From Hanleya hanleyi (Eukaryota; Mollusca; Polyplacophora; Lepidopleurida; Hanleyidae): DNA of 64,000 nt. The stretch covers positions 62,001-126,000 of the forward strand of contig JAVTVY010033641.1 of assembly GCA_036873755.1 (NCBI GenBank), written 5' to 3'. The notes under the pieces were generated by a model. The model did no database searches, was not told the origin of the DNA, and worked only from the letters and a program-made list of their open reading frames with translations. Both the position numbers and the translations under genes were made by a program. This document shows, piece after piece, positions 2,138 through 38,013 of the stretch; the first letter of the stretch is position 1, and each line of letters opens with the position of its first letter.

Positions 2138-2159
2138 AGTAGTAGTGTCTACGGAAAAA

Positions 2160-2400
2160 TGGTTCCATTGACCTACTTTTTTGTTCCCCCGGGGAGGATT
2201 TGAAGAGGAACTTGGTCACGTGACGATCATGTGATCGTTGGGGAAAAACCACCTCCAACACAGAAGAGTTCCAATCTAGGGGGAGGCAACTTTTGATGTA
2301 CTTTTGTGGTTTTTGGCAAATGTCGGGTTATCTTCCCTGATTCGAACATTTGCATATTAAATCAATACGGGAAAATGCCTGTATGGGGTATGGATGATCC
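2160..2400. repeat. Outer segment of left arm
   Basis: This unique-looking DNA includes a GATCACATGATC-type palindrome (cacgtgacgatcatgtgatcg, about 2217-2237). Its counterpart at about 13100-13320 in the right arm is nearly identical in reverse complement. Confidence 0.7.
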
Positions 2401-3215
2401 GATGGGGTCGTATGAGGTATCAAAGTGAAGCTTATGTGAGGGGGCATATGAGGGGCTGGGTGTGGGGTTGAAATAGCGTCATTCTGCGCATGCGCGGTGG
2501 ACCAAGGGTATGGAAATAGACGTTTTAGGATCTAGGGGAGCCACTAATGGTCCGATAGGGTCGAGTGTGGTATCCATGTGAAGCTTATGTGAGGGGGCAT
2601 CTGATGGGCTGGCTGTGGGGTTGAAATATATCATTCTGCGCATGCGCGGTAGACCAAGGGTATGAAAATAGACGTTTTGGGATCTAGGGGAGCCACTAAT
2701 GGTCCAATGGGGTCATATGAGGTATCAATGTGAAGCATTCGTGAAGGGGCATCTGATGGACTGGGTGTGGGATTGAAATAGCGGCATTCTACGCATGCGC
2801 GGTGGCCAAAGGGTATGAAAATAGACGTTTTGGAGCTAGGGGAGTCCCTAATGGACCAATGGGGTCATATGAGGTATCAAAGTGAAGCATTCGTGAAGGG
2901 GCATCTGATGGGCTGGGTGTGGGATTGAAATATCTGCATTCTGCGCATGCACGGTGGCCAAAGGGTATGAAAATAGACGTTTTGGAGCTAGGGGAGTCCC
3001 TAATGGACCAATGGGGTCATATGAGGTATCAAAGTGAAGCATTCGTGAAGGGGCATCTGATGGGCTGGGTGTGGGGTTGAAATATCTGCATTCTGCGCAT
3101 GCGCGGTGGCCAAAGGGTATGAAAATAGACGTTTTGGGATCCAGGGGAGCCCCTAATGGGCCGATGGAGTTGTATGAGGTATCAATGTGAAGCCTATGTG
3201 AAGGGGCATCCAGTC
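2400..3215. repeat. Tandem array, ~152-bp units (left arm)
   Basis: Five to six units follow one another. Each has GCGCATGCGC (2485, 2636, variants near 2793 and 2942, then 3093), an atagacgttttgg block, a tggtccaatggggtc block and a tatgaggtatcaa(t/a)gtgaagc block. Spacing between successive GCGCATGCGC cores is 149-157 bp. Related arrays fill the outer arms of all three palindromes. Confidence 0.85.
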
Positions 3216-3480
3216 AATGGGGTGGGTGCATGTAAAATTTTTCCTGCAAAAAAAAAAAAACGGAACACGGACTTTATCGAAAAATCCGGGAAAATGCCTA
3301 TATGGGGTATGGGGGGTATATAGGTCCCCGGGCTTAACGGGGTTTGCCTATCAATAGAGTTATCTCCCCTTAGTTCCGGGGTGGGTGTATGTAAAAATTT
3401 TCCTGAAAAAATACGGAACACGGACTTTATCCTAAATTACGGGGAAAATGCCTATACGGGGTATGGGGGGTATAGGACCA
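3215..3480. repeat. Poly-A and gggaaaatgcctat repeat block
   Basis: Two diverged copies of a ~150-bp segment containing tgtaaaa(a)ttttcctg, cggaacacggactttatc and gggaaaatgcctata. The same block occurs at 12300-12570, 46250-46640 and 54400-54790. Confidence 0.7.
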
Positions 3481-4035
3481 TCCTGGGAAACCTACTTCTC
3501 GACATTTGCGGTATAGGTTGTGGGGTCTCGTTTTCTTAGTCTCGTCAAGACAAACATGATAGGAAGTGTCGCGGAGCGAATCGTTGCAATTTTTGGAAAA
3601 GTACCATATAGCCCATATAGTCCCATACTAGGGGTATAGGACCGATGTTTGTCCCACTGGGAAACCTACTTCTATACATTTGCGGTATGGTTGTTTGGAT
3701 TTGTTTTCCTAGTCTCGTCATTTAGAACACGATAGGAAGTCTCCCGGAGCGAAACGGTGAAATTTTTGAAAAAAGTCACCGAGACCCATATAGACCCATA
3801 TAGTCCCATACTGTGGTATAGGACCAATGTTTGTCTCACTGGGAAACCCACTTCTAGACATTTGCGGTATGGTTGTTTGGATTTGTTTTCTTAGTCTCGT
3901 CAAGACAAACATGATAGGAAGTGTCCCGGAGCGAATCGGTGAAATTTTTGGAAAAAGTCATCGAGGCCTGGGTAGGCTCATAGACATCCATATACTGGAG
4001 TATAAGCCCAATGTATGTATAAATCCATACTGGGT
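3480..4035. repeat. Tandem array, ~180-bp units with ccaatgtttgtcccactg
   Basis: Three to four units each hold gtcccactgggaaacc, acatttgcggta, tagtctcgtca and tgataggaagtgtc. The matching array in the right arm is 11747-12310; palindrome 3 has its own at 47600-48000 and 53830-54400. Confidence 0.8.
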
Positions 4036-4850
4036 GGACGTGTTGGGGTCTAGGTGGGCCACTAATGGTCCAATGGTGTCGTATGAGGTCTTATTTTGAA
4101 GCTCTCATGCAGGAGCACTTGACTACACTAATGGTTCGTCCGTGTTCAATAGTCTGCGCATGCGCAGCCTGGCCGTAGTAGAGAAAGCAGGCATTTTTGG
4201 GGTATGTGGGTGTGTGTTTGCGGTAGAGATGGGCTATTCACGGTCCGAATGGGTCGTGGAAGGTGTCAAAGTGAAGCTTGTGTGGGTTAGAGTCAGAATG
4301 GTGTGTGTTTTAAGTGCAAGTCGCGTTAATCTGCGCATGCGCAGTTGGTTGTAGTAAGTAAAGTGGCCATTTTGGGGCAGTACATGAAGGTATTTGGGGT
4401 CGAGATGGGCTATTCACGGTTCGAATGTGTCCTGGAAGGTGTCATCTTGTAGCTCTCGGGGTGTAGACCCCGATTTGGGGGCTGTTCACAGCATCTGTGA
4501 CGTCATTGGTGACGTCATCAGTAGGAGTAGTAAGTAAAGTAAGCATTTTGGGGCAGTGAAGGATGGTATTTGGTGTAGAGATGGACCATCCTTGGTCCAA
4601 ATGCGTCATGGGAGGTGTCATGTTGTAGCTCTCGGGGTGTAGACCCCAATTTGAGGGATATCCAGACCATCTGTGACGTCATTGGTGACGTCATCAGTAC
4701 GAGTAGTAGCGAAAGTGGGCATTGTTTAGCAGTGAAGGATGTTACTTGGTGTAGACATGGACCATCCGCGGTGCGAATGGGTCGTGTGAGGTGTCATCTT
4801 GTAGCAACGCCCACCAGTGCCATTCTTAATGCTTCAACGCCCTGGTGAAA
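4036..4850. repeat. Diverged array with GCGCATGCGC and paired TGACGTCA sites
   Basis: Two units have the GCGCATGCGC core (about 4150 and 4332). Two further units have paired TGACGTCA octamers 12 bp apart start to start (4498 and 4510; 4674 and 4686), next to ctcggggtgtagacccc. The right arm of palindrome 1 has lost the counterpart of this block. The same CRE-pair unit is present in palindrome 2. Confidence 0.75.
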
Positions 4851-5057
4851 TAGCTCAGAAGCTCTGATATTCCATGGAATTGTCATTAATTCTTCGAAAT
4901 GCAGTGACGCCCGTCAACGCCCGTCAACGCCCGTCGTTACACCTTAACACTCTATTATAACGCCATGATATAGACCGGAGAGAGAACAACAACAGCAACA
5001 ACAACAACAAGGATGACACATGAGAGAACAACAACAACAAGAAGTTTTTTCACATAG
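4851..5057 (-). repeat. CGCCCGTCAACG repeats and (CAA)n tract
   Basis: Short direct repeats of cgcccgtcaacgcccgt and a (CAA)n stretch (about 4985-5040) lie downstream of the minus-strand gene. The same pair of modules follows or precedes the genes at 40320, 48910 and 52352. Confidence 0.7.
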
Positions 5058-5063
5058 TTTATT
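5058..5063 (-). terminator. Polyadenylation signal AATAAA (minus strand)
   Basis: TTTATT on the plus strand lies about 255 bp past the stop of the gene at 5319-6305. It sits in a conserved 3' module (5064-5250) with several ccaatcag motifs. The same module and signal occur at 41001, 48718 and 53115 after other genes of the family. Confidence 0.6.
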
Positions 5064-5318
5064 CTCCCCAATGCTACATCATACCCACGCTGGGGGATTC
5101 GCGTTGGGTATATTTACAATTCAAGAAGATTCTTGTCCAATCAGAGGCCACCATTTGCATCTGTCATATTCGTTCCTGTCCGTTAGATGTATTCTCGGCT
5201 ACTCTTGTCCAATCAGAAGTCGCCATTTCAGAAAGTTCCATCTTCGGCCATGTTCGCTCTGAACCGTTTGTTCTAATCGTCATCGGGCAGGCCAGGATAC
5301 CGTTGAGGAAACATATCC

Positions 5319-6305
5319 TCAGATAGTTGTTTGTGCATTCTGAGTATCTATCAGTGCATGGGTGAATACTTTCATCCGATGGGGGTGGTGGGTCAGTTTA
5401 ACCACGAAGAACGTAACATTGGTGACCCTCTCCACTATCCACTTGGTGTTGGGACGCTGTTCATAGGCCCATTCCAAGGGATCCACAGTGTCCAGTTGGG
5501 CCAGCATCGTCTCTAGCGACGCCCGATTGGTGATTGTGAAAGGATGGTCGTACACTGGGTTGATGGCACTGGAATAGAAATAGCACAATTCACGCGTCAT
5601 CTTATGGCATAAGATGTACCCAAATGATACATTTAATGTGAAGGACGTAGGTTGGTCATTGAAGATGGCTTCCACGTAGCTGCGTAGACGGGCGAGGTCG
5701 GTCAGTCGGAAATTGTACAAGTCCAATATAGGGCGATGGCGGTGGAAGCAGTGTCGGATCATGGACCAATATCGTCGATACATCTCACTCACTGGATGAT
5801 CTTCGGGTAAGAGATCGCTGGGAACATCCACAGCATCTTCCAGAAAATGTTCGTTGTTGTCAGGCGTATGACTGGAAACAGTAATGCTAGGGACCGGCTG
5901 GATATCTAGGCTCTTCTGAGCTGTGGGTATAGGCGGGCTCTCCGTGATCGCATCACCATTGGCATTCTCCTCCCCGGGTTCATCTTCAGTGGATCTGTCC
6001 CTCCTGGGTGCCTCTTTAGTGGGAAGTTGTCCCTCATACCGTGGTGACGGACCATGAATCAAACGCTCATGCCGTTTTAACTGACTGGGTCGTTTGAAGA
6101 GTTGACCACATTCTTCGCATGGACGCTTGGGTGGCCCATGAATTGAACGTTCATGGCGCTGTAAATGATCTGAGCGCTGGAACGACAGTGTAGGCCTACA
6201 TATCGTACAGCTATACCGGGCGGTTCCATCGTGCTTGGTAGCCTCATGGCGGCGCAAGTCGTGCCGGCGAGTGAATGATTTCGAGCACGTAGTACAAGTG
6301 AACAT
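5319..6305 (-). CDS. Zinc-finger protein resembling Polinton DNA polymerase B N-terminal module
   Basis: This 328-aa protein has three C2H2 fingers: C4/C7/H20/H25; C33/C36/H51/H56 with an unusual 14-residue gap; C63/C66/H79/H84. An acidic, Ser/Pro/Thr-rich linker follows (about 85-170). The C-terminal part (about 175-305) contains LYNFRL, SFGYIL, then EWAYEQRPNTKWIVE and VTNVTFFV. From memory of the family, such a block lies upstream of the polymerase domain in many mollusc Polinton PolB proteins. No exonuclease or polymerase motif follows, and the protein ends in an unrelated short tail, so it is probably a truncated polymerase gene or a detached N-terminal regulator. The start is supported by a TATA box 46 bp upstream and by the mirror copy at 8727. 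Alternative: a DNA-binding regulator of the element. Confidence 0.65.
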   Translation of the reverse strand: MFTCTTCSKSFTRRHDLRRHEATKHDGTARYSCTICRPTLSFQRSDHLQRHERSIHGPPKRPCEECGQLFKRPSQLKRHERLIHGPSPRYEGQLPTKEAPRRDRSTEDEPGEENANGDAITESPPIPTAQKSLDIQPVPSITVSSHTPDNNEHFLEDAVDVPSDLLPEDHPVSEMYRRYWSMIRHCFHRHRPILDLYNFRLTDLARLRSYVEAIFNDQPTSFTLNVSFGYILCHKMTRELCYFYSSAINPVYDHPFTITNRASLETMLAQLDTVDPLEWAYEQRPNTKWIVERVTNVTFFVVKLTHHPHRMKVFTHALIDTQNAQTTI

Positions 6306-6330
6306 CTTGGTGGTTGACAGAGTGTCTGAT

Positions 6331-6359
6331 GAAACGGCCAGGCCGTTTCCTTTTTATAG
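6331..6359 (-). promoter_or_regulatory. TATA box with adjoining 9+1+9 palindrome
   Basis: CTATAAAAA on the minus strand (6351-6359) is followed immediately by GAAACGGCC-A-GGCCGTTTC (6331-6349), a perfect inverted repeat between the TATA box and the ATG at 6305. It is conserved in the mirror arm (8673-8701), as expected for a core promoter with an operator-like site near the transcription start. Confidence 0.65.
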
Positions 6360-6564
6360 CAAGCTAGCTGCTGATCTATTTTTAGCACAATCAGTTCAAC
6401 TTGGACGTCAGCGACAAGAACCCGGATGTAGACGCGGACGTCAAACAGGTGCACGCTCCTGTGGTGCACCATGTACCCTAGGATGTTCACGAATGTTCCA
6501 CCATCCCGGCCTTCTATCAGGCCCAGGTCAGAAGCTCTCATGGCCTGCATGTGAATGGTCAGTC

Positions 6565-6780
6565 ATATTGTGCGTATGCATGTGTGCGTCAGTGTGTATG
6601 CATCTGTGTGTGCGTGTGTGTGTGTGTGTGTACGTGTGTATGTGTGTATGCGTCTGTGTGTATGTATCTGTGTGTATGTGGGTGTATGTGTCTGTGTGTA
6701 TACGTCTGTGTGCGTGTGTGTGTGTGCTTGCGTGGGTGTACGCGTGTGTGTGGGCTTGCGTGTGTGTGTGTGTATGACTC
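6565..6780. repeat. (TG)n-rich tract
   Basis: A long, impure gtgtgtgt/tgtatg microsatellite. The right arm has only a short remnant (about 8418-8462). Long frames across it are artefacts of the repeat. Confidence 0.85.
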
Positions 6781-7210
6781 ACTCACTCACTCACTCACAC
6801 TGACTCACTCACTCACTCAATCACTCACTTACTCACTCACTCACTTACCGTCGTTAGTGCGTCCATGCGTTAAGACGGGCGTTGGGGACGCCTCACCCAC
6901 TCACTCACCCACTCACTCACTCACTCAATACCCACTCACTCACTCACTCACTCACTCACCTACTCACTCACTCACTCACTCACTCACTCACACTCACTGA
7001 CTCACTCACCCACCACTCACTCACTCACTCACACTCACTCACTCACTCACTCACTCACTCACTCACTCATTCACACTGACTCGCTCACACTGACTCACTC
7101 ACACTGACTCACTCACTCACTGACTCACTCACACTCGCTCACTCACTCACTCACTCACTCACACTCAACTCAACTCACTCACTCACTCACTCACTCACTC
7201 ACTCACTCAC
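6776..7210. repeat. (ACTC)n tract with embedded conserved module
   Basis: Almost pure actcactc repeats, interrupted at about 6848-6896 by a unique block (gtccatgcgttaagacgg core). The same block sits within (GAGT)n in every palindrome arm that kept this region: 8301-8342, 17915-17963, 20130-20179 and 50768-50814. Confidence 0.85.
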
Positions 7211-7215
7211 ACTCA

Positions 7216-7320
7216 TATGTACAGACACCACCACACACCAATAATACCACCACACACACACACCACCAACACCACCACCAACGCCACCAACGCCACCACC
7301 AACGTCACCAACCCCACCAC
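7216..7320. repeat. (CCA/ACC)n-rich tract
   Basis: Cca/acc-rich repeat between the (ACTC)n tract and the GAGCTC block. Its complement is at 7905-8005. Confidence 0.8.
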
Positions 7321-7327
7321 CGGGCGT

Positions 7328-7560
7328 GGTAGCTCCCGTGTGGCAGAGCTCTTGGATCGGAGCTCTCGGAGCTCAAAGCTTGCGGCGCTCGGAAATGACG
7401 TCATCGCAGGCATGTGCTGCACCCTCGGAGATCCGGTGCTCTTGGAGCTCGGAGCTCCGGAGCTCTTCGAACTCGGAGCTCGGAGCTCCGGAGCTCTTGG
7501 AGCACGGTGCTCCGGAGCTCTTGACCCTGCGCTACACGGAAGTAGCGTCATCGTACGCAG
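7328..7560. repeat. GAGCTC-rich block, left of centre
   Basis: A dense cluster of gagctc/ggagctccg palindromes followed by atgacgtcatcgcaggcatg. The mirror block is 7690-7885. Similar blocks lie next to the centre of palindromes 2 and 3 and before the ATPase gene at 38014. Confidence 0.8.
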
Positions 7561-7598
7561 GCACACACACACACTTACCCGGTGCACTCACACCCTAG

Positions 7599-7630
7599 TG
7601 TACCCTATGCCCTACGGGCTATAGGGTACA
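7599..7630. repeat. Central hairpin of palindrome 1
   Basis: TGTACCCTAT, 12 nt, ATAGGGTACA: a perfect 10-bp stem at the symmetry centre of the 11.2-kb palindrome. The reverse complement of this 32-mer matches the centre of palindrome 2 (19043-19074) at 30 of 32 positions. Confidence 0.9.
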
Positions 7631-7689
7631 GGGTGCACCGCGTAAGTGTGTGTGTGTGCCTGCGTACGATGACGCCACTTCCGAGTAGG

Positions 7690-7885
7690 GCAGGGTCAAG
7701 AGCTCCGGATCTCCGTGGTCCAAGAGCTCCGGAGCTCCGAGCTCCGAGTTCCAAGAGCTCCGGAGCTCCGAGCTCCAAGAGCTCCGGATCTCCGAGGGTG
7801 CAGCACAGGTACACGCGCATGCCTGCGATGACGTCATTTCGGAGCGCCGCAAGCTTTGAGCTCCGAGAGCTCCGATCCAAGAGCT
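7690..7885. repeat. GAGCTC-rich block, right of centre
   Basis: Mirror of 7328-7560, with the same atgacgtcat motif at about 7829. Confidence 0.8.
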
Positions 7886-8020
7886 CTGCCACACGGGAGA
7901 TACCACGCCCGGTGGTGGCGCTGGTGGCGCTGGTGGCGTTGGTGGTGGCGTTGGTGGCGTTGGTGGTGGTATTGCTGGTGTGTGTGTGGTGGTATTATTG
8001 GTGTGTGGTGGTGTCTGTAC

Positions 8021-8420
8021 ATATGAGTGAGTGTGAGTGAGTGAGTGAGTGAGTGAGTGAGTGAGTGAGTGAGTGAGTGAGTGGAGTGTGAATGAGTGAG
8101 TGAGTGAGTGAGTGAGCGAGTGTGAGTTAGTCAGTGAGTGAGTGAGTCAGTGTGAGTGAGTGAGTGAGTGAGTGAGTGAGTGAGTGAGTGAGTGAGTGAG
8201 TGTGAGTGAGTGAGTGAGTGAGTGGTGGGTGAATGAGTGAGTGAGTGAGTGAGTGAGTGAGTGTGAGTGAGTGGGTGGGTGAGTGAGTGAGTGAGTGGGT
8301 GAGGCGTCCCCAACGCCCAACGCATGGACGCACTAACGACGGTGAGTGAGTGAATGAGCAAGTGAGTGATTGAGTGAGTGAGTCAGTGAGTCAGTGTGAG
8401 TGAGTGAGTGAGTGAGTCAT
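8021..8420. repeat. (GAGT)n tract, right arm
   Basis: Mirror of the (ACTC)n tract. The embedded module at 8301-8342 has lost six bases (gtctta) relative to the other copies. Confidence 0.85.
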
Positions 8421-8672
8421 ACACACAGATGCATACACACTGACGCACATATGCATACGCACAATATGACTGACCATTCACATGCAGGCCATGAGAGCTT
8501 CTGACCTGGGCCTGATAGAAGGCCGGGATGGTGGAACATTCGTGAACATCCTAGGGTACATGGTGCACCACAGGAGCGTGCACCTGTTTGACGTCCGCGC
8601 CTACATCCGGGATCTTGTCGCTGACGTCCAAGTTGAACTGATTGTGCTAAAAATAGATCAACAGCTAGCTTG

Positions 8673-8701
8673 CTATAAAAAGGAAACGGCCTGGCCGTTT
8701 C
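8673..8701 (+). promoter_or_regulatory. TATA box with palindrome, right arm
   Basis: CTATAAAAA (8673-8681) followed by GAAACGGCC-T-GGCCGTTTC (8683-8701), 45 bp before the ATG at 8727. It is the mirror of 6331-6359. Confidence 0.65.
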
Positions 8702-8726
8702 ATCAGACACTCTGTCAACCACCAAG

Positions 8727-9401
8727 ATGTTCACTTGTACTACGTGCTCGAAATCATTCACTCGCCGGCACGACTTGCGCCGCCATGAGGCTACCAAGCA
8801 CGATGGAACAGCCCGGTATAGTTGTACGATATGTAGGCCTACACTGTCGTTCCAGCGCTCAGATCATTTACAGCGCCATGAACGTTCAATTCATGGGCCA
8901 CCCAAGCGTCCATGCGAAGAATGTGGTCAACTCTTCAAACGACCCAGTCAGTTAAAACGGCATGAGCGTTTGATTCATGGTCCGTCACCACGGTATGAGG
9001 GACAACTTCCCACTAAAGAGGCACCCAGGAGGGACAGATCCACTGAAGATGAACCCGGGGAGGAGAATGCCAGTGGTGATGCGATCACGGAGAGCCCGCC
9101 TATACCCACAGCTCAGAAGAGCCTAGATCTCCAGCCGGTCCCTAGCATTACTGTTTCCAGTCATACGCTTGACAACAACGAACATTTTCTGGAAGATGCT
9201 GTTGATGTTCCCAGCGATCTCTTTCCCGAAGATCATCCAGTGAGTGAGATGTATCGACGCCATTGGTCCATGATCCGACACTGCTTCCACCGCCATCGCC
9301 CTATATTGGACTTGTACAATTTCCGACTGACCGACCTCGCCCGTCTACGCAGCTACGTGGAAGCCATCTTCAATTACAAGCGTCTAGTCCGTCATTCATA
9401 A
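8727..9401 (+). pseudogene. Truncated copy of the zinc-finger/PolB-N protein
   Basis: Mirror-arm copy of 5319-6305. It keeps all three C2H2 fingers and the acidic linker with few changes. Homology stops at 9374, where Penelope sequence is inserted, and the frame runs 9 codons into the insert before a stop (224 codons in all). The lost C-terminal part resumes briefly at 11670-11746. The N-terminal fingers could still be made as a short protein. Confidence 0.8.
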
Positions 9402-10226
9402 TCCAGCCGTCGTCCATTAGAGAATATCCGCGTCCATAATCCAAAGACCTATTCCATTTTCCACATAACAGTATTAGCACCAAATTCAAAAAGACAATCA
9501 TAGTATACATAACCATAGGCTTGTTTCCTGCAAGAGAGAAGCGGTCAACAGTTTTCAATGATGCCGGCAAGACATCATGATGTTCCAAAAATATCAAATC
9601 CGTATCGCTGATCAGTATTCTTAATCCATAATATTCGTTATAGAGTCGTCATCTAAAAAAGATGTATCTCAGTCACGCTTTGATTGTGACTGTTCATATG
9701 AGTACCATGAGGATCTTGAAGTACATGGGTTCATACGGCCCCTAGCCCCGGGTTAAGCGGAATTAGACACAAGTTACGAAACGTAGCGCCATAGATCTTG
9801 CACGCTACGTTCGTATTTTGCTATCAGCATGCGATATGTATCGCCAAATTTGAGAAACTTTGAGTGGAGGCGCTTAGTGGAATAGCCCTGTTTGATAAGT
9901 TTCTGCAACAATGTTTTGTGACGTTGGTTAAAATCATCACATTTAACACAGGATCTAGCAAATGCTACTAAGCGAGATATGTATACGCCATATGCAGCTC
10001 GCACTGGAATATTACTATCCCAAAAGGGATAGTTTACGATGTCGAAATTGTAATCATCTCTTTTGTCATAAAGTCGACGAGAGAGAATGCCCGCTTCATT
10101 TTTATAGAGATAGAGATGTGCCTATAGGGCTATCTGTAGTTTCCTTCAAATCCAGTGAAGGTGGATATATATCCTTCACTGCGTCATTTATATAGCGATT
10201 ATCCACAGCGAGAAGATCGTCTATAT
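9375..10226 (-). pseudogene. Penelope-type reverse transcriptase, C-terminal half
   Basis: This partial copy starts at YIDDLLAVDNRYIND, continues with SLDLKETTDSP, and is broken by an ~11-bp deletion near 10105-10115. The remaining C-terminal frame (10004-9774) ends LWRYVS, and the 3' UTR follows to 9375. It supplies the catalytic segment that its tandem partner lacks. Confidence 0.7.
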
Positions 10227-11669
10227 TACAAGCGTCTAGTCCGTCATTCATAATCCAGCCGTCGTCCATTAGAGAATATCCGCGTCCATAATCCAAAGAC
10301 CTATTCCATTTCCATATAACAGTATTAGCACCAAATTCAAAAAGACAAAAGTATACATAAACATAGGCTTGTTTCCTGCAAGAGAGAAGCGGTCAACAGT
10401 TTTCAATGATGCCGGCAAGACATCATGATGTTCCAAAATATCAAATCCGTATCGCTGATCAGTATTCTTAATCCATAATATTCGTTATAGAGTCGTCATC
10501 TAAAAATGATGTACCTCAGCCACGCTTTGATTGTGACTGTTCATATGAGTACCATGAGGATCTTGAAGTACATGGGCTCATACGGCCCCTAGCCCCGGGT
10601 TAAGCGGAATTAGACACATGTTACGAAACGTAGCGCCATAGATCTTGCACGCTACGTTCGTATTTTGCTATCAGCATGCGATATGTATCGCCAAATTTGA
10701 GAAACTTTGAGTGGAGGCGCTTGGTGGAATAGCCCTGTTTTATAAGTTTCTGCAACAATGTTTTGTGACGTTTGCGTTTGGTGAATGAGAAGGAACGGGC
10801 TTTGAATGGATCGGTTTTTGAAAGCGCCTGCATATAGTCATATTCATAAGAGAACAGATACAGGTCAGCCAACAGAGGTGCACAATTAGTACCCATTGGA
10901 ATACCTATATGCTGCTGATATATTGTGTTGCCAAATTTCACATAGATATTTTTAATGAGAAATTCAAGCAACTCTATAAACAAAGAAACATCCCACGAAT
11001 GATATCTCTTGTATGTAGTCGAGCTAAAGAATGCTTTATAGCTTGCGACATTAATATATCTACGATCAGTTTTCTTGAACACAGATACTATTAATGAACT
11101 TATACGGTCAATAAGGTCCTGATGAGGGATTGTAGTATAGAGAGTCGAGAAATTCCATGTGGATACATGTCGGTACGCTATGTGACCTTTCGCATCAAGT
11201 TCTTCCGTAAGACATTTTTGAGTTTTTCAATATCCACATACATTCCACGCCAGAGTTCTTAGAAATAGTGGCGCAATACCTTTCCCAAAATGCTTTTACC
11301 TCCTGAAGGACCCTCGTCAACAGGGTTGAAAGAAGCTTGGTGGTGCAGCTTCTAGAACCAGCTATGAATCTAGCTTTGTATGGTGATTTATGCATTTTGG
11401 GAGTCCAGCATATTTTTGGTATGTCGTTATGATTGGTTGGAAGACAAATACCTCTTTCCCTGAGAAACTTTTTGTGATTGTTAAATAAATCTTCCAGAGT
11501 AAATGCGGTTTGGGAGTAAGTAGACGTATTTGATGAAGATATGTCTACACTCAATTCTTTAACCAGCACCTGGTAATAGTAATATTTACATATGAATATT
11601 ATATTATTCGGAGCTTTGTCTGCTGGGACTATGACGAATTTACTCTGGAGATTTACTAGAACTTCTTGC
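10227..11669 (-). pseudogene. Penelope-type reverse transcriptase, YIDD segment deleted
   Basis: Reading on the minus strand: the SKFVIVPADKAPNNI start, WTPKMHKSPYKARFIAGS (RT1-like), then after a frame break an IPMGTNCAPLLADLYL block (motif B). The frame then jumps from SFTKR directly to RHKTLLQKLIKQ, losing about 120 codons that include the catalytic YIDD. The C-terminal tail ends at LWRYVS with the stop at 10621. No GIY-YIG endonuclease motif was seen. The missing catalytic aspartates make it inactive. Confidence 0.75.
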
Positions 11670-11746
11670 GACGTCCTTCCCATTAAATGTAGCATTTGGG
11701 TACATCTTATGCCATAAGATGACGCGTGAATTGTGCTATTTCTATT
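11670..11746 (+). pseudogene. Leftover piece of the zinc-finger/PolB-N gene
   Basis: The reverse complement of about 5570-5650 (acgtccttc, cattaaatgt, catcttatgccataagatg). It shows that the Penelope sequence landed inside the gene and that about nine bases of the target were lost. After 11746 the arm jumps to the tandem array, so the equivalents of about 4036-5570 are deleted. Confidence 0.8.
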
Positions 11747-13341
11747 CCTATTCCATGTATGGATTTATACATACATTGGGCTTATACTCCAGTATATGGA
11801 TGTCTATGAGCCTACCCAGGCCTCGGTGACTTTTTCCAAAAATTTCACCGATTCGCTCCGGGACACTTCCTATCATGTTTGTCTTGACGAGACTAAGAAA
11901 ACAAATCCAAACAACCATACCGCAAATGTCTAGAAGTGGGTTTCCCAGTGGGACAAACATTGGTCCTATACCACAGTATGGGACTATGTATGGGTCTATA
12001 TGGGTCTCGGTGACTTTTTTCAAAAATTTCACCGTTTCGCTCCGGGACACTTCCTATCGTGTTCTAAATGACGAGACTAAGAAAACAAATCCAAACAACC
12101 ATACCGCAAATGTATAGAAGTAGGTTTCCCAGTGGGACAAACATCGGTCCTATACCCCTAGTATGGGACTATATGGGCTATATGGTACTTTTCCAAAAAT
12201 TTCAACGATTCGCTCCGCGACACTTCCTATCATGTTTGTCTTGACGAGACTAAGAAAACGAGACCCCACAACCTATACCGCAAATGTCGAGAAGTAGGTT
12301 TCCCAGGATGGTCCTATACCCCCCATACCCCATATAGGCATTTTCCCGTAATTTAGGATAAAGTCCGTGTTCCGTATTTTTTCAGGAAAAATTTTACATA
12401 CACCCACCCTGGAACTAGGGGGAGATAACTCTATTGATAGGCAAGCCCCGTTAAGCCCGGGGACCTATATACCCCCCATACCCCATATAGGCATTTTCCC
12501 GGATTTTTCGATAAAGTCCGTGTTCCGTTTTTTGTTTTTTTCAGGAAAAATTTTACATGCACCCACCCCATTGATGCCCCTTCACATAGGCTTCACATTG
12601 ATACCTCATACAACTCCATCGGCCCATTAGGGGCTCCCCTAAATCCCAAAACGTCTATTTTCATACCCTTTGGCCACCGCGCATGCGCAGAATGCAGATA
12701 TTTCAACCCCACACCCAGTCCATCAGATGCCCCTTCACGAATGCTTCACATTGATACCTCATATGACCCCATTGGACCATTAGTGGCTCCCCTAGATCCC
12801 AAAACGTCTATTTTCATACCCTTGGTCTACCGCGCATGCGCAGAATGATATATTTCAACCCCACAGCCAGCCCATCAGATGCCCCCTCACATAAGCTTCA
12901 CATGGATACCACACTCGACCCTATCGGACCATTAGTGGCTCCCCTAGATCCTAAAACGTCTATTTCCATACCCTTGGTCCACCGCGCATGGGCAGAATGA
13001 CGCTATTTCAACCCCACATCCAGCCCCTCAGATGCTCCCTCACATAAGCTTCACTTTGATACCTCATACGACCCCATCGGATCATCCATACCCCATACAG
13101 GCATTTTCCCGTATTGATTTAATATGCAAATGTTCGAATCAGGGAAGATAACCCGACATGTGTCAAAAACCACAAAAGTACATCAAGAGTTGCCTCCCCC
13201 TAGATTGGAACTCTTCTGTGTTGGAGGTGGTTTTTCCCCAACGATCACATGATCGTCACGTGACCAAGTTCCTCCTCAAATGCTCCCCGGGGGAACAAAA
13301 AAGTAGGTCAATGGAACCTTTTTTCCGTAGACACTACTACT
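11747..13341. repeat. Outer right arm of palindrome 1 (tandem arrays)
   Basis: Reverse complement of 2138-4035, with the same order of arrays: ~180-bp gtcccactg units, the gggaaaatgcc block, then ~152-bp GCGCATGCGC units (about 12679, 12830, and a gcgcatgggc variant at 12985), and the unique end. Confidence 0.85.
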
Positions 13342-13507
13342 ATGGTTCGTATTTAGTTGAACAACACCAGGCCCCAGTATGAAGCTCAGGGGAACCCAAA
13401 TCCGTACACTGTTCATTAGGACGCTATGTTTGTTTTGATAATATGTTGTGCTTTTAGCCCATTCGGGCATATTTATGCAAATAAATCTATTCTATTCTAT
13501 TCTATTC
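13342..13507 (+). mobile_element. LINE 3' UTR, second half, with (TCTAT)n tail
   Basis: Starts with the right duplication ATGGTT (13342-13347). It ends with a gcaaataaatc polyadenylation-like signal and a (tctat)n microsatellite (about 13480-13507), a common LINE 3' end. It continues the LINE interrupted at 2137. Confidence 0.7.
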
Positions 13508-15401: not shown

Positions 15402-15539
15402 CACTATAGGCCTGGCAACCTTTGACCTTGTATTCCTCCGCGGTGATGCGGTCATGTCTGGCGGTGATGCGGTCGCCTCCGCGGAGAAAAAGTAGTCCCC
15501 AGAATTCAAATACGCTGCATGGTCCGATTGGGTCGTATG

Positions 15540-17660
15540 AGGTATCAATGTGAAGCATTCGTGAAGGGGCATCTGATGGGCTGGGTGCGGGTTTGAAATA
15601 GCGTCATTCTGCGCATGCGCGGTGGACCAAGGGTATGGAAATAGCCGTTTTGGGATCTAGGGGAGCCAATAATGGTCCAATTGGGTCATATGAGGTATCA
15701 ATGTGAAGCCTATGTGAGGGGGCATCCGACGGGTGGGTGTGGGGTTGGAATATCGTCATTCTGCGCATGCGCAGTAGATCAAGGGTATGGAAATAGACGT
15801 TTTGGGATCTAGGGGAGCCACTATTGGTCTGATTGGGTCGAGTGAGGTATCAATGTGAAACCTATGTGAGGCGGCATCCGATGGGCTGGGTGTGGGTTGA
15901 AATATGAGCATTCTGCGCATGCGCAGAAGACCAAGGGTATGGAAATAGACGTTTTCGGATCGTTGTGGGTCACTCATGGTCCGATGGAGTCGTATGAGGT
16001 ATCAGTGTGAAGCACACATGAGGGGGCATCTGACTGGACTAGCGGCTCGGCAACCTCCCCACAGCGCATGCTCCATTTCGCAGGCTCCAATAACATCCCT
16101 GCCTCCAATAGCGGAAGTTGACCATTACTACGTTGCTATGACGTATAGGGGAAACCAACCAACGCACGGTTCAGTTTGAATCCGACCAAACGACTCCTTT
16201 AGTGTTGCACATGAGCGAACTACTTTTCATATGCTCTGTCCAGATAAACAGGGGAAATTATCTCCAGATAATTCTTTTTAACGCTAGGTCAACGGAGGTA
16301 TTATGCAGACTTGAAAAGTAATCAAAATTTTCGTTAAACATCTATTTTACTATATATGATGTCACTTCCGGCGATGTGCGCGAAGGCCCCGAATCGGGTC
16401 CAAAAATCTGACTGGTGGCTGGGGTGTTATTAGACCCCCAGCGAGGTGGTTGGCGGCTCGAGCGTTGTCACCATTCTGCGCATGCGCAGACAGGGAATTG
16501 TGGGAAAAGGGTATGGAAATAGACCTTTTGGGATCTAGGGGAGCCCCTAATAGGCCGATGGAGTCGTATGAGGTATCAATTTGAAGCACACATGAGGGGG
16601 CATCTGACTGGACTAGTGACTCGAGCGTTGTCACCATTCTGCGCATGCGCAGACAGGGAATTGTGGAAAAAGGGTATGGAAATAGACGTTTTGGGATCTA
16701 GGGGAGCCTCTAATGGGCCGATGGAGTTGTATGAGGTATCAATGTGAAGCCTATGTGAGAGGTCATCCGCCTGGACTAGTGTCTCGGCCGTTGTCACCAT
16801 TCTGCGTATGCGCAGACAGAGAATTGTGGGAAAAGGATATGGAAATAGACGTTTTGGGGTCTGGGTGGGCCACTAGTGGTCCTATGGAGTCGTATGATGT
16901 ATCAATATGAAGCCTATGTGAGGGGCATCCTCCTGGACTAGTGACTCGGCCGTTGTCAACATTCTGCGCATGCGCAGACAGGGAATTGTGGGAAAAGGGC
17001 ATGAAAATAGACATTTTGCGGTCGAGGTGGGCCCCTAATCGTCCGATGAGGTCGAGTGAGGTATCGTTGTAAAGGATACGTGAGGGGGCATCCGCCTGGA
17101 CTAGTATGACGTGGAATTGACGTCATTCTGCGCATGCGCAGTAGACAAAATATATGGAAATGGGCGTTTTGGGGTCTAGGTGGACCACTAATGGTCCAAT
17201 GGAGTTGAGTGAGGTATCTATGTGAAGCAGTCATGACGCAGCATCCGCCTGGACTAGTGTGTCGTCCGTGTTCGACATTCTGCGCATGCGCAGACAGGGA
17301 ATTGTGGGAAAAGGGTATGGGAATAGACGTTTTGGAGTCGAGGTGAGCCCCTAGTGAACCGATGGAGTCTTATGAGGTATCGTTGTGAAGCATTCGTGAA
17401 GAAGCATCCGCCTGGACAATTGTGTCGTTCGTGTTCAACAGTCTGCGCATGCGCTGAGAGGGAATTGTGAGAAAAGTGCATTGGAAGGAACGTTTTGGGG
17501 CCTAGGTGGGCCACTAATGGTCTGATTGAGTCGAATGAGGTATCAATGTGATGCACACGTGAGGGCGCATCCGCCTGGGTGGATGGGTGTTAGGAATATC
17601 GTCATTCTGCGCATGCGCCGGCAGGCCGTAGTATGGAAATAGACATTTTGAGGCCGATAT
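15540..17660. repeat. Tandem array of ~150-165-bp units, left arm of palindrome 2
   Basis: GCGCATGCGC cores at about 15610, 15763, 15915, 16478, 16641, 16967, 17132, 17283, 17447 and 17607, with a gcgtatgcgc variant near 16806. Each unit keeps the atagacgttttgg and tgaggtatcaatgtgaagc blocks. The mirror array is 20460-22100. Confidence 0.85.
16050..16452. mobile_element. 403-bp insertion with 8-bp duplication, one arm only
   Basis: The segment is absent from the mirror position in the right arm (about 21620-21640). It is flanked by GCGGCTCG at 16042-16049 and 16453-16460. Its ends are gCAACCtcc and GGTTG, a minimal inverted repeat. An 8-bp duplication suggests a hAT-like non-autonomous element, but the ends are too short to assign it. 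Confidence 0.7.
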
Positions 17661-17914
17661 GGACCACTATTGGTCTGAATGTGTCTAGGGAAGTGTTATT
17701 TTGTAGCACTCGGGGTGTAGACCACGACTTGAAGGGATGTCCACGTCATCAGTGAGAGTAGTAGCGAAAGCGGCAGTTTCGGAGGTGCGATGGAGTGCAT
17801 TTGGAGTAGATAACGGCCTATTTTTACATCCATTTACCTGGTAGAGTTACCTGTGAGTGTGAGTGTATGCGCGCGTGTGAGTGAGTGAGTGAGTGAGGAG
17901 TGCACAACGCTCGT

Positions 17915-17963
17915 GAGGCGTCCCCAACGCCCGTCTTAACGCATGGACGCAATAACGACGGTG
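17915..17963. repeat. Conserved ~48-bp module, left arm of palindrome 2
   Basis: The gaggcgtcc...cgcatggacgc...acgacggtgag block flanked by GAGT repeats. The mirror copy is 20130-20179. Confidence 0.8.
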
Positions 17964-18239
17964 AGTGAGTGAGTCAGTGAGTCAGTGAGTGAGTGAGTGG
18001 GATCCGACTGGACTAATGTATCGTCCGGTTTCATCATTTTGCGCATGCGCAGTCTGGCCGTCGTATAGAAAGCAGGCATTTGGGGGATTCGTGGAAGTTT
18101 GTTGAGTGGTTGACCATCCCGGGTCAAATGGACCGTGTGGGGTATCAGTGTGAAGCTCTCGTAGGAAAAGTGGAAATTGCCTCTCATTTGTGGGGCGCTC
18201 ACTTCCGGTTGTGTGGGGCGCTGCCCTCACCCAATCAGA

Positions 18240-18720
18240 AGCGAGTATTTTGACCCGGTGCATTATGGGGCATATCCAAGATGGCGGCGTCTGCCTTCTG
18301 GTTCAAGATGGCGTCACGTCCGGGGTCGAAAACTGACCATTTTGGCGGAATGTGGTCATCTGGTGTCGAAAACTGGACCTTGTATGGGTCCCGCCTAATT
18401 TGGTGTAGAGATGGACCACTATTGGTCCGAATGCGTCCTGTGGGATGTCATCTTGTAGTTCTCGGGGTGCAGACCACGATTTGAGGAATGTTCACGTCAT
18501 CTGTGATGTCATTGGTGAAGTCATGAGTAGGAGTAGTAGCCAAAGTGGGCATTTTGGGGCAGTGAAAGAAGGTATTTTGTGTAGAGATGGACCACACTTG
18601 GTTCGAATGTGTCGTGGGAAGTGTCATCTTGCAGTTCTCGGGGTGTAGACTCCATTTGAGGGATGTCCACATCATCTGTGACGTCATCGGTGACGTCATC
18701 AGTACGAGTAGTAGCGAAAG
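18240..18720. repeat. Block with caagatggcgg and paired TGACGTCA sites
   Basis: Holds aagatggcgg (about 18277) and agatggcgtc motifs resembling YY1 sites. Two units with ctcggggtg(c/t)agac follow, then a TGACGTCA pair 12 bp apart (18679 and 18691). The mirror is 19380-19830. Confidence 0.7.
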
Positions 18721-18919
18721 AACATGCTTTATAATTGGCTCAGTGCCAATTTTTTCCCCACGATTTGGATTGATGAGGTACACATGTTCATTCCTATATT
18801 TACAGACATTACCACCACCACCACCACCAACACCAACACCACCACCACACACCACCACACACCACCAACACCACCACCAACGCCACCACCGGCCGTTGAC
18901 GGGCGTCAACGCCCGGTGG

Positions 18920-19042
18920 TGGTGGTGGTAGCTCCCGTGTGGCAGAGCTCTTGGATCGGAGCTCTCGGAGTTCAAAGCTTGTGGAGCTCAGAGCTCGGAA
19001 ATGACGTCATCGCAGGCATGCACGCGTACCTGTGCTGCAACC
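18920..19042. repeat. GAGCTC block next to the centre of palindrome 2
   Basis: GAGCTC-rich sequence with atgacgtcatcgcaggcatg, preceded by CCA/ACC repeats (18808-18900). The mirror is 19095-19290. Confidence 0.8.
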
Positions 19043-19074
19043 TGTACCCTATAGTCCGTAGGGAATAGGGTACA
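19043..19074. repeat. Central hairpin of palindrome 2
   Basis: TGTACCCTAT, 12 nt, ATAGGGTACA at the exact symmetry centre, almost identical (30 of 32) to the complement of 7599-7630. Confidence 0.9.
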
Positions 19075-20459
19075 CCAGGGTGCGGGTGCAGCACAGGTAC
19101 GTGCGCATGCCTGCGATGACGTCATTCCGAGCTCTGATCTCCACAAGCTTTGAACTCCGAGAGCTCCGATCCAAGAGCTCTGCCACACGGGAGCTACCAC
19201 CACCACCAGCGGGCGTAGACGCCCGTCAAAGCCCGGTGGTGGCGTTGGTGGTGTGTGGTGATGTATGGTGGTGGTGGTGGTAATGTCTGTAAATATAGGA
19301 ATGAACATGTGTCCCTCATCAGTCCAAATCGTGGGGAAAAAATTGGCACTGAGCCAATTATAAAGCATGTTTTTTCGCTACTACTCGTACCGATGACGTC
19401 ATCGATGACGTCACAGATGCTGTGGACATCCCTCAAATGGAGTCTACACCCCGAGAACTGCAAGATGACACTTCCCACGACACATTCGAACCAAGGGTGG
19501 TCCATCTCTACACCAAATACCTTCTTTCACTGCCCCAAAATGCCCACTTTGGCTACTACTCTTACTGATGACTTCACCAATGACATCATAGATGACGTGA
19601 ACATCCCTCAAATCGTGGTCTGCACCCCGAGAACTACAAGATGACACCCCACAGGACGCATTCGGACCAATAGTGGTCCATCTCTGCACCAAATTAGGCG
19701 GGACCCATACAAGGTCCAGTTTTCGACACCAGATGACCACATTCCGCCAAAATGGTCAGTTTTCGACCCCGGACGTGACACCATCTTGAACCAGAAGGCA
19801 GACGCCGCCATCTTGGATATGTCCCATAATGCACCGGGTCAAAATACTCGCTTCTGATTGGGTGAGGGCAGCGCCCCACACAACCGGAAGTGAGCGCCCC
19901 ACAAATGAGAGGCAATTTCCACTTTTCCTACGAGAGCTTCACACTGATACCCCACACGGTCCATTTGACCCGGGATGGTCAACCACTCAACAAACTTCCA
20001 CGAATCCCCCAAATGCCTGCTTTCTATACGACGGCCAGACTGCGCATGCGCAAAATGATGAAAACGGACGATACATTAGTCCAGTCGGATCCCACTCACT
20101 CACTCACTGACTCACTGACTCACTCACTCACCGTCGTTATTGCGTCCATGCGTTAAGACGGGCGTTGGGGACGCCTCACGAACGTTGTGCACGCATCACT
20201 CATTCACTCACTCACACGCGCGCATACACTCACACTCACAGGTAACTCTACCAGGTAAATGGATGTAAAAATAGGCCGTTATCTACTCCAAATGCACTCC
20301 ATGGCACCTCCGAAACTGCCGCTTTCGCTACTACTCTCACTGATGACGTGGACATCCCTTCAAGTCGTGGTCTACACCCGGAGTGCTACAAAATAACACT
20401 TCCCTAGACACATTCGGACCAATAGTGGTCCATATCGACCTCAAAATGTCTATTTCCAT

Positions 20460-22100
20460 ACTACGGCCTGCCGGCGCATGCGCAGAATGACGATATTCCT
20501 AACACCCATCCACCCAGGCGGATGCGCCCTCACGTATGCATCACATTGATACCTCATTCGACTCAATCAGACCATTAGTGGCCCACCTAGACCCCAAAAC
20601 GTTCCTTCCAGTGTACTTTTCCCACAATTCCCTCTCAGCGCATGCGCAGACTGTTGAACACGAACGACACACTTGTCCAGGCGGATGCTCCTTCACGAAT
20701 GCTTCACAACGATACCTCATAAGACTCCATCGGTTCACTAGGGGCTCACCTCGACTCCAAAACGTCTATTCCCATACCCTTTTCCCACAATTCCCTGTCT
20801 GCGCATGCGCAGAATGTCGAACACGGACGACACACTAGTCCAGGTGGATGCTGCGTCATGACTGCTTCACATAGATACCTCACTCAACTCCATTGGACCA
20901 TTAGTGATCCACCTAGACCCCAAAACGCCCATTTCCATATATTTTGTCTAATTTCTATAGAATGACGTCAGTTCCACGTCAAACTAGTCCAGGCGGATGC
21001 CCCCTCACGTATCCTTTACAAAGATACCTCGCTCGACCTCATCGGACGATTAGGGGCCCACCTCGACCGCAAAATGTCTATTTTCATGCCCTTTTCCCAC
21101 AATTCCCTGTCTGCGCATGCGCAGAATGTTGACAACGGCCGAGTCACTAGTCCAGGAGGATGCCCCTCACATAGGCTTCACATTGATACCTCATACGACT
21201 CCATAGGACCACTAGTGGCCCACCCAGACCCCAACACGTCTATTTCCATATCCTTTTCCCACAATTCTCTGTCTGCGCATGCGCAGAATGGTGACAACGG
21301 CCGAGACACTAGTCCAGGCGGATGCCCTCTCACATAGGCTTCACATTGATACCTCATACAACTCCATCGGCCCATTAGAGGCTCCCCTAGATCCCAAAAC
21401 GTCTATTTCCATACCCTATTTCCACAATTCCCTGTCTGCGCATGCGCAAAATGGTGACAACGCTCGACCCACTAGTCCAGGCAGATGCCCCCTCATGTGT
21501 GCTTCACATTGATACCTCATACGACTCCATCGGCCCATTCGGGGCTCCCCTAGATCCCAAAACGTCTTTCCATACCCTTTTCCCACAATTCCCTGTCTGC
21601 GCATGCGCAGAATGGTGACAACGCCCGAGCCGCTAGTCCAGTCAGATGCTCCCTCATGTGTGCTTCACATTGATACCTCATACGACTCCATCGGACCATG
21701 AGTGACCCACAACGATCCGAAAACGTCTATTTCCATACCCTTGGTCTATTGCGCATGCGCAGAATGCCCATATTTCAACCCACACCCAGCCCATCGGATG
21801 CCGCCTCACATAGGTTTCACATTGATACCTCACTCGACCCAATCAGACCAGTAGTGGCTCCCCTAGATCCCAAAACGTCTATTTCCATACTCTTGGTCTA
21901 CTGCGCATGCGCAGAATGCCGATATTGCAACCCCACACCCACCCGTCGGATGCCCCCTCACATAGGCTTCACATTGATACTTCATATGACCCAATTGGAC
22001 CATTAGTGGCTCCCCTAGATCCCAAAAAGTCTATTTCCATACCCTTGGTCCACCGCGCATGCGCAGAATGACGCTATTTCAACCCCGCACCCAGCCCATC
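20460..22100. repeat. Tandem array, right arm of palindrome 2
   Basis: Mirror of 15540-17660 without the 403-bp insertion. GCGCATGCGC cores at about 20475, 20640, 20803, 21115, 21276, 21437, 21600, 21750, 21905 and 22056. One unit near 20955 has lost the core (tttctatagaatg). Confidence 0.85.
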
Positions 22101-22273
22101 AGATGCCCCTTCACGAATGCTTCACATTGATACCTCATACGACCCAATCGGACCATGCAGCGTATTTGAATTCTGGGGACTACTTTTTCTCCGCGGAGGC
22201 GACCGCATCACCGCCAGATATGACCGCATCACCGCGGAGGAATACAAGGTCAAAGGTTGCCAGACCTATAGTG

Positions 22274-36329: not shown

Positions 36330-36600
36330 TAAATCGATAATTTGAGGCGTTGAGGTGTTGAGATGAGCTGCGGCAGGTGTTAAAGCGTCACGACGGGCGT
36401 CGACAGACGTTAATGCGTTGAGACGGGTGTCCACAAGCGTTACTGCGTTTCAACGAATTAGTGTCCATTCAATGGGATATCATGTGACCATTTAGAACAA
36501 CCAGAGCGTCTGATGTCTCTCTGTTTGTGGGCGTTGAGGAGTGAAGACTGGCGTTGGCGGGCGTTAGTTTGTTAGGTCCATAAAAGCAATCCCATCCGAA
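36330..36600 (+). promoter_or_regulatory. GGCGTT repeat module with TATA-like box
   Basis: Repeated (g)gcgttga/cgggcgt motifs, then ccataaaagc (about 36578-36587) some 28 bp before an ATG at 36615. The same arrangement precedes the genes at 39911, 40320 and 52352, so this is a diverged version of the family promoter. Confidence 0.5.
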
Positions 36601-36614
36601 AACTCTACATCAAA

Positions 36615-37020
36615 ATGGCTTGTCGTTGCCTTGTGTGCGGATCTTCACCGGACGGTACGATATCATGCGACAACAGAAGTAAATACATGGATACTCGAAA
36701 TCCGATGTAGATTGAGAGATTCCTACACGATGATTCCGATAGCCTTCCGACAGATACTAAGAGTCTACCTGCTGATACTGAAAAAGCTCGTTCGTTGATG
36801 CGGAGAGGTGGTCCCAAGGTAACCCGACTGAGGAAGAAAAGGAACCCACTTTTGAGATCGTATTTTAACAGCGGTTATAACTACACATGTTCCGGCCACC
36901 GAGAAGGTCAGACAGGATAAATCACAACAGGCGTACATCACCATGCTCCTCGATCCGTATCTGAAAAACATCCATGGTGATCTATAAACAGTTTAGCCTA
37001 CTGTCGAAAATGGAACGAGC
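36615..37020 (+). pseudogene. Diverged copy of the 191-aa zinc-finger/helical protein
   Basis: MACRCLVCGSS (C5/C8 kept) followed by a stop after about 31 codons. Then comes an SLPTDTKSLPADTEKA stretch like the TDTE-rich linker of the 191-aa protein. Finally MVIYKQFSLLSKM (about 36974) matches its MAIYEQYTLLPLEM. Order and spacing fit one decayed gene. Confidence 0.55.
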
Positions 37021-37620
37021 CATGTGTCAAATGAATGAAACAGTAAAATATCGCGCTCCAGCGGGATATCACGAGACAATACAAGACGCCTTCGACTGTA
37101 CCAGCCCCACTATCAACTTACAACTTTTATCTGCCCCATCGCCGCCGATGCCAAGCGTACCACCAACAGCCCCTCAGCGGGTAGCAGACGAAATCATGAA
37201 GAGCATACCCGCCTCGTTCCAGAGGAGAGGTGGCTTGTTGCTAGTACGCTTGAAAGTCAATCCTCGAACGGTAAAGGTGAACCCCTGGTCCAGAAATAGT
37301 GGTCTTAAGCATCGACATTGTGGATTTTCGCCATTCACGACTCCGACCGGAGGCAAGACGACGGAAGCGTCATCGTCATGTTTTACCTCACACTGCCTAG
37401 GTGTAGCTCAGTCAAGCTATTCCCGGACAACATCTTAGCCCATTACAGCAGGCAACTGCTGCATGCCTTACACCGGCCTGGACGATGTGAATGTGACCTG
37501 GTGGATATTCAGTAACCTTCATATTCCCTGAAGGGCAGTAATAACACCTCCGAAACCCCCACGGACGAAACCCCCACCTATCGTCAATGAGGTGGACATG
37601 ACGTACAACGAACGCAAACA
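37021..37620 (+). pseudogene. Degenerate coding-like stretch, family unknown
   Basis: Open frames change repeatedly. SIPASFQRRGGLLLVRLKVNP (about 37200) and a proline-rich PPKPPRTKPPP segment (about 37545) look protein-like, but I cannot assign them. It could be another gene of the Polinton-like cluster, since it lies between two of its members. Confidence 0.35.
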
Positions 37621-37734
37621 AAAGTTCCAGTTGGTCATGGGGAGTACATGAGCTTTAGCGTGAGCTCGATTTTTCACCATATCGGGGATATCAGTTAAAC
37701 GCAACATATACAGGTGAGTAGTATATATAACTTC

Positions 37735-37920: not shown

Positions 37921-37948
37921 TTGCCATCCCCGAGCTCGGAGCTCTTGC

Positions 37949-37955: not shown

Positions 37956-38013
37956 CACGACATGCATATGTGAAAGCTTCATTATACGCCTGGTTTCCAT
38001 GTAGACGAGAGCC

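Follow-up and report, generated by a model that had tools for sequence, protein, structure and literature searches.

A palindromic element with Polinton-like ends, apparently inserted as one unit in the genome of Hanleya hanleyi, and its mirror-image relatives

A 64,000-nucleotide stretch of the genome of the mollusc Hanleya hanleyi (contig JAVTVY010033641.1, positions 62,001 to 126,000; called the window here, with its own numbering) contains an 11.2-kb palindromic element, P1, at 2138-13341. That P1, and a second palindromic element of the window, P3, were each inserted as a whole unit is well supported. Mirror elements of this kind form a large family in the genome, in which at least two Polinton ends have been used, one carrying an open reading frame (ORF) that we call ORF A (as in P1) and one carrying an ATPase gene (as in P3). 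We think it probable that the members of the P1 family are non-autonomous mirror derivatives of Polintons, that is, fold-back copies of one Polinton end that are moved by a Polinton integrase.

Read as its reverse complement, the right end of P1 at 13341 matches the left end at 2138 exactly over 22 bases, up to the first difference. Both ends start with AGTAGTAGTG, which begins with (AGT)3, and ATGGTT stands directly outside each of them as a perfect 6-bp duplication. The symmetry reaches to the centre, which reads TACCCTATGCCC-TAC-GGGCTATAGGGTA at 7601 with a single base unmatched. The parts of the element are as follows.

2132-2137, left copy of the 6-bp target-site duplication, ATGGTT
2138-2400, plus strand, left terminal inverted repeat, beginning AGTAGTAGTG and 98% identical to the right one
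2402-3210, plus strand, left-arm tandem subrepeats, 152 bp x 5.3 (Tandem Repeats Finder, TRF)
4034-5570, plus strand, stretch found in the left arm only, of which 4703-5570 is also contiguous with the arm in the element E31448
5319-6353, minus strand, left copy of ORF A, an open frame of 344 codons with N-terminal C2H2 zinc fingers, its 5' end facing the centre
7350-7390, minus strand, GAGCTC-rich central module, left copy
7613-7615, symmetry centre, a 3-nt spacer
7839-7882, plus strand, GAGCTC-rich central module, right copy
8679-9401, plus strand, right copy of ORF A, 240 codons, shortened by the insert
9378-11670, minus strand, reverse-transcriptase-like insert of 2.3 kb, in the right arm and neither in the left arm nor in the left arm of E31448
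12560-13081, minus strand, right-arm tandem subrepeats, 153 bp x 3.4 (TRF)
13079-13341, minus strand, right terminal inverted repeat
13342-13347, right copy of the target-site duplication, ATGGTT

The initial annotation had described the locus as a palindrome transposed whole, with Polinton-like ends, and self-comparison of the window recovers its inverted arms at 2137-2919/13342-12560 (96%), 2699-4033/13085-11753 (94.5%) and 5658-6611/9374-8421 (98.6%), together with a self-inverted middle at 6767-8427 (86%). With the arm-specific stretches excluded, the arms have 3295 identities in 3381 aligned bases. The two long parts that are not simple repeats are 98.5% identical (2138-4033 versus 11753-13341, 98.49% over 1586 aligned bases with 313 gap columns; 5655-6611 versus 8421-9377, 98.54% over 957 bases), a short part at 5571-5648 versus 11671-11748 is 97.44% identical over 78 bases, and the simple-repeat middle, 6612-7587 versus 7633-8420, is 94% identical (93.95% over 760 bases, with 244 gap columns). 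The 313 gap columns of the outer arms probably reflect the unequal number of subrepeats, 5.3 versus 3.4 copies. The description of P1 as a mirror image thus holds exactly for its ends and has to be qualified for its arms, which differ by one insertion and one deletion. Since the left arm of E31448 has no reverse-transcriptase-like insert and is continuous from the position equivalent to 4703 across 5571, the insert, presumably Penelope-like, is the later arrival and part of 4034-5570 is ancestral; from the contiguity of 4703-5570 with the arm in E31448, the right arm of P1 has probably lost its counterpart of 4034-5570.

Insertion as a unit is corroborated by other elements with related ends. 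A search of the 2.48-Gb genome with the terminal repeat of P1 gave 9 inverted pairs, P1 included, among 40 matches scored of 3188 candidates. From 17 fetched loci together with P1, P3 and an element on contig C900, both ends could be located in 11 elements, whose duplications were taken by eye from the flanking sequence. An exact 6-bp duplication is present in six of them (P1, ATGGTT; E15533, CCGGTC; E28025, GGCCTG; E22207, CTCGTC; E20113, CACATT; E13632, CTAGTT), for which the chance probability of at least six such cases among 11 is 1e-19, and P3 and E44337 match at 5 of 6 bases, so that at least 5 of 6 bases agree in 8 of the 11. AGTAGT is found at both ends in nine, the exceptions being E13632, with AGAAGT at the right end, and P3, whose right end is lost. 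The inverted match extends inward past the terminal repeat in 8 of the 11, in E15533 and E28025 partly only, and essentially ends after about 0.9-1.3 kb in E12874, E20113 and E22207. Two copies of the terminal repeat about 88 kb apart on contig C40686 (L035 and L036) have identical end and flank sequence as far as compared, which suggests a duplication or an assembly repeat.

The exact duplication outside the matching ends of P1 and the five further exact cases are joined by an empty site within the window, that of P3. The other palindromes of the window and the parts of P3 are listed here.

15402-22273, P2, a related palindrome with arms 95-97% identical
45405-45410, left target duplication of P3, TGCACC
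45411-55573, P3, second palindromic element, beginning AGTAGTATAGG; its right end is minus the last ~19 bases
50894-52123, plus strand, ATPase ORF with a C2H2 head in the right arm of P3, with P-loop GPTGCGKT; Pfam matches weak and below cut-off, for example Pox_A32
52277-52927, plus strand, acidic ORF with a C2H2 head downstream of the P3 ATPase; mirror copy at 49047-49409 on the minus strand
55574-55579, right target duplication of P3, TGCATC (5 of 6 bases matching)

P3 splits a reverse-transcriptase gene, an unsplit relative of which lies inside the insert of P1 at about 10880. The unsplit copy spans the junction with one TGCACC. P3 has TGCACC on its left and TGCATC on its right, so the unsplit copy corresponds to the empty site of P3 with one base of the right duplication changed. 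The P3 ATPase ORF we take to be a Polinton packaging ATPase. For P2 no clear ends or target duplication were found. The flanks of P1 itself were read as a long interspersed nuclear element (LINE): the right flank holds AATAAATCTATTCTATTCTATTC, as expected of a LINE 3' end, and the left flank contains an ORF at 1278-1931, which has no Pfam match, so that the probable identity as a LINE comes from reading. When the joined flanks were searched among the fetched loci, the sole match was the P1 locus itself.

The Polinton-like nature proposed for P1 agrees with the published signature of Mavericks, which have (AGT)2//(ACT)2 ends and perfect 6-bp duplications and whose intact vertebrate members measure 12.7-24.6 kb and have terminal repeats 46-1,447 bp long (PMC8097293). 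Polintons are described as carrying capsid genes in 15-20 kb (PMC4028283) and as encoding a protein-primed polymerase (PMC6431247). P1 shares with them the (AGT)n//(ACT)n ends and the 6-bp duplication, and its family shares ATPase-like genes and an rve integrase (PF00665, E 5.1e-10), which is found in E20113; this element is 13.2 kb long, has related ends and is flanked by an exact 6-bp duplication. An integrase can therefore be assigned to the terminal-repeat family and not to P1. E20113 also has a weak adenovirus-protease match below cut-off, and further ORFs in it resemble, to the eye, capsid and ATPase proteins of Polintons, without Pfam support. P1 differs from Polintons in that its arms make up the whole element, in its length of 11.2 kb, and in the lack of any integrase, DNA polymerase B or capsid match in the five ORFs scanned; we class it as a non-autonomous derivative and not as a full Polinton.

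The arms may come from a particular part of the parent. On contig C2477 an unpaired copy of ORF A, for which the 3 kb fetched show no inverted counterpart, has upstream of it, on its own strand, a zinc-finger ORF and two fragments of what is probably a polymerase B gene, as judged from a DTDS motif and from DNA_pol_B_2 matches below cut-off (E 0.0013 and 0.0047) in 2 of the 8 homologues scanned, of 69 found. Because ORF A follows this probable polymerase gene, the arm of P1 seems to be the end segment of a Polinton that lies outside polymerase B. Polymerase-B genes of the DNA_pol_B_2 kind are abundant in the genome (164 matches; 84 scored of 1723 candidates). We also considered ORF A as the N-terminus of polymerase B and dropped this idea, since there was no significant alignment with the N-terminal part of a DNA_pol_B_2-matching frame (best E 0.17) and ORF A is a separate gene in C2477. 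A homologue search with ORF A gave one protein, no relatives were found in viral contigs, and an NCBIfam scan returned nothing useful. Over the 110 codons of its zinc-finger part, compared in 22 arms (with C483_L, C483_R and C1004_L left out as misaligned), the distinct codon changes in ORF A numbered 13 synonymous and 29 non-synonymous, a non-synonymous fraction of 0.69 versus 0.74 expected (p=0.48), and hence no sign of constraint was seen there.

Copies of both arm genes are numerous and are arranged with one polarity. The 344-codon ORF A of P1 has 150 matches scored of 43,491 candidates, all at least 96% identical, and by eye the same open frame was counted in about 108 of these 150. An exact 42-mer of ORF A occurs at 907 places genome-wide (445 forward, 462 reverse; control 0), an exact ATPase 42-mer at 2302, and a control reverse transcriptase at 5173, and neighbours were compared for each among the first 100 places in contig order. 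Adjacent ORF A copies formed 28 (-,+), 0 (+,-) and 3 (+,+) pairs, the (-,+) gaps being 378-4935 bp, so that 56 of the 100 places lie in outward-facing pairs. For the ATPase there were 11 (-,+) pairs (22 places), 0 (+,-), 1 (-,-) and 1 (+,+), and the control showed five neighbouring pairs on one strand and, up to 5 kb, none in inverted orientation, its one (-,+) pair being 7.3 kb apart. Exact 42-mer matching underestimates pairing, since the ATPase copy on C1041, unpaired by this measure, proved on reading to be a palindrome. An exact P1-type terminal 28-mer, with all its 86 places in the genome listed, gave 6 (+,-) pairs within 12 kb (4.1-11.1 kb), 2 (+,+) and 0 (-,+), and two more (+,-) pairs at 22.4 kb, the size of a full Polinton, and at 33 kb. 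The reverse-transcriptase element stands in four same-strand copies, about 3.6 kb apart, at G000:C152:3631-14544.

Self-inverted arms were found in all 15 pairs that were read (10 of ORF A and 5 of the ATPase, picked from the listed pairs), with arm identities of, for example, 99.6% in C159, 99.3% in C1004 and C5095, and 98.7% in C2265. In C159 the palindrome extends for more than 13 kb at 98.6-99.3%, and the contig starts inside the element; in C900 it measures 6.2 kb at 96%, with outer arms near 90%. The arms of both hold copies of ORF A and of a related zinc-finger ORF, not all of them intact. A tRNA-Leu (TAA) gene lies in both arms of the mirror element C4697 (L051, 662-746 on the minus and 1065-1149 on the plus strand) and in one arm of C5095 (L047, 654-738, minus strand).

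Many centres have in common a GAGCTC-rich module and a core with GGGGTCAAAGGTCA, CACGTG, GGAAGTGA and ATGCAAAT. In a comparison of 36 units (P1, P2, P3 and 33 other loci), the core or the GAGCTC module is mirrored round the centre in 14, one-sided in 7 and absent in 15. The centre of P1 has the GAGCTC module and lacks the core; in P2 the mirrored GAGCTC modules lie at 18949-19004 and 19122-19176. As the 5' ends of the genes face the centre in a good part of the elements read, and as we take the motifs of the central module to resemble binding sites of animal transcription factors, it is plausible that the central region is a putative divergent promoter. The idea that the fold points of different elements lie along one linear sequence was not confirmed, the centres having common modules and not being nested.

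How such elements could arise and spread may be pictured as follows. During protein-primed, strand-displacement replication of a Polinton, a displaced or stalled strand would fold on itself at a short inverted repeat that lies upstream of the end genes, where the sequence is hairpin-prone, and be extended along its own arm as far as the terminus; the product would be a linear DNA whose two ends are identical. Both arms of P1 would then be the same Polinton end, with its terminal repeat, subrepeats and ORF A, joined head to head, and for this reason its termini would be equivalent and usable by a Polinton integrase, which would insert the whole 11-kb unit and make the 6-bp duplication. The 3-nt centre of P1 agrees with fold-back copying. 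If two equivalent ends suffice for the integrase, mirror molecules would make good cargo and would afterwards be moved in trans. A mixture, of occasional fold-back followed by transposition of mirror forms, seems to us the most likely course.

Several observations weigh against this account. Among the 11 elements with both ends located, the duplications of E12874 and C900 match at 4 of 6 bases only, and E47351 has no target duplication. The C2477 pieces that we call polymerase B have themselves no DNA_pol_B_2 match and aligned with nothing significant in a comparison with another polymerase B of the genome (best E 0.43). Five of the 36 units compared (E13632, C483, C5095, C756 and C1531) are palindromes with neither the core nor the GAGCTC module. 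No contig is common to the two first-100 lists of ORF A and the ATPase, although they overlap as far as C3096, over which range they include 37 and 86 contigs, respectively, and no element was found that combines an ATPase arm, the central module and an ORF A arm. The two arms of P1 differ by 1.46% from each other and by 0.84% and 1.36% from the left arm of E31448. These similar distances, the grouping of arms by centre type and the likeness of ORF A arms from different loci, both described below, and the common module fit an amplification of existing palindromes, and the module also fits one old palindromic lineage that has swapped its arms, in place of repeated fold-back.

A single ancient, palindromic, non-autonomous element, amplified in this form and later diversified in arms and centre by recombination and the capture of Polinton gene pieces, its two arms being held alike by arm-to-arm copying, is the alternative that we take most seriously, even if we consider it unlikely. 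It would explain why one core/GAGCTC central module occurs with differing gene arms, and why 6 of the 11 ATPase gaps are 2750-2868 bp. ORF A arms (median difference 0.99% within 12 elements and 2.71% in 288 comparisons between them, C483 and C1004 with their rearranged inner arms being included in both distances and tree) also tend to cluster by centre type across several loci, in a tree with 3 of 21 inner branches well supported, and in 9 of the 12 elements an arm resembles an arm from elsewhere at least as closely as it does its own partner. C2265 and C1612, however, have similar gaps, yet their centres have no mutual match at E 1e-10, and their arms are 98.7% and 95.6% alike within and 92.2% between the elements. 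Likewise, ATPase arms differ by 0.39-4.38% within six elements, compared with a median of 4.37% and a minimum of 1.57% in 60 comparisons between them, which fits separate formation as well as arm-to-arm copying.

The palindromes might instead have been made after insertion, if an integrated Polinton suffered an internal break and the repair copied in the terminal repeat of the other end together with adjoining sequence. This process would likewise leave the ends and the original 6-bp duplication intact, and fold-back inversions at breaks have been described in yeast (PMC10622511, PMC7467729), but independent local repairs would hardly produce 39 outward and 0 inward pairs in the two first-100 lists, a common central module, or the sharing of one centre by elements that lie on separate contigs (C900, C3581 and C4674), and we hold this origin to be improbable. 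Very improbable, too, is the view that P1 belongs to another transposon superfamily, as a Foldback-type element that has merely acquired Polinton genes. The target duplications of Foldback elements are 7-9 bp long (9 in Foldback, 7 in Galileo), in contrast to the 6 bp of P1, and the Foldbacks known, with FB, Galileo and Tetris among this type, use other transposases, whereas an rve integrase is present in the related-ended E20113. The likeness lies in the very long inverted arms, both with tandem subrepeats of 152-153 bp, since internal tandem subrepeats are also described for the arms of Galileo, which resembles Foldback (PMC3573991); the difference lies, beside the duplication, in the (AGT)n ends, which with 6 bp form the Maverick signature (PMC8097293). 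Palindromic chimeric reads or haplotypes joined head to head deserve almost no credence as an explanation: such chimeras are a known artefact of long reads, and yet the arms of P1 differ by about 1.5% as well as by an insertion and a deletion, the target duplications are exact, and the commoner control repeat lacks such pairing within 5 kb.

For the reading that we prefer, mirror derivatives of Polintons, a close parallel is found in protein-primed linear replicons such as adenovirus, which give rise to symmetric (palindromic) defective genomes. In these too one genome end is doubled as a mirror image and both termini are usable origins; the mirror elements differ in being fixed in the host genome in many copies, P1 and several others with target duplications. 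We suggest tentatively, as something possible though less than likely, that mirror genomes formed by repeated fold-back act as parasites of Polintons, being dual-ended, gene-poor, moved in trans and present in high numbers. If this is true, the genome keeps as fossils the defective-interfering-like genomes that a virus-like transposon once produced; if the elements are born of replication, it offers many centres from which the Polinton mode of replication could be read, and the elements would also show how virus-like transposons spawn their own parasites and be an added source of kilobase palindromes. A search by title and opening of the abstract, with the subscription literature mostly outside it, found nothing on palindromic, non-autonomous or foldback Polintons.

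The window has some further features. A Polinton-like stretch at 36400-42600, in which no mirror partner was noticed, adjoins a GAGCTC-rich segment at 37740-37875 and contains an ATPase ORF (38005-39318), a small ORF (39273-39680) and a C2H2-like ORF (39824-40231). Different proteins of the window (those at 50894, 52277, 38005, 5319-6353 and 39824) have in common a start of the C2H2 zinc-finger type, in some cases below the Pfam cut-off, as though many genes had acquired a zinc-finger head. Finally, a 221-bp tandem repeat of two copies with 88% matches, at 61716-62161, apparently has no relation to the palindromes.

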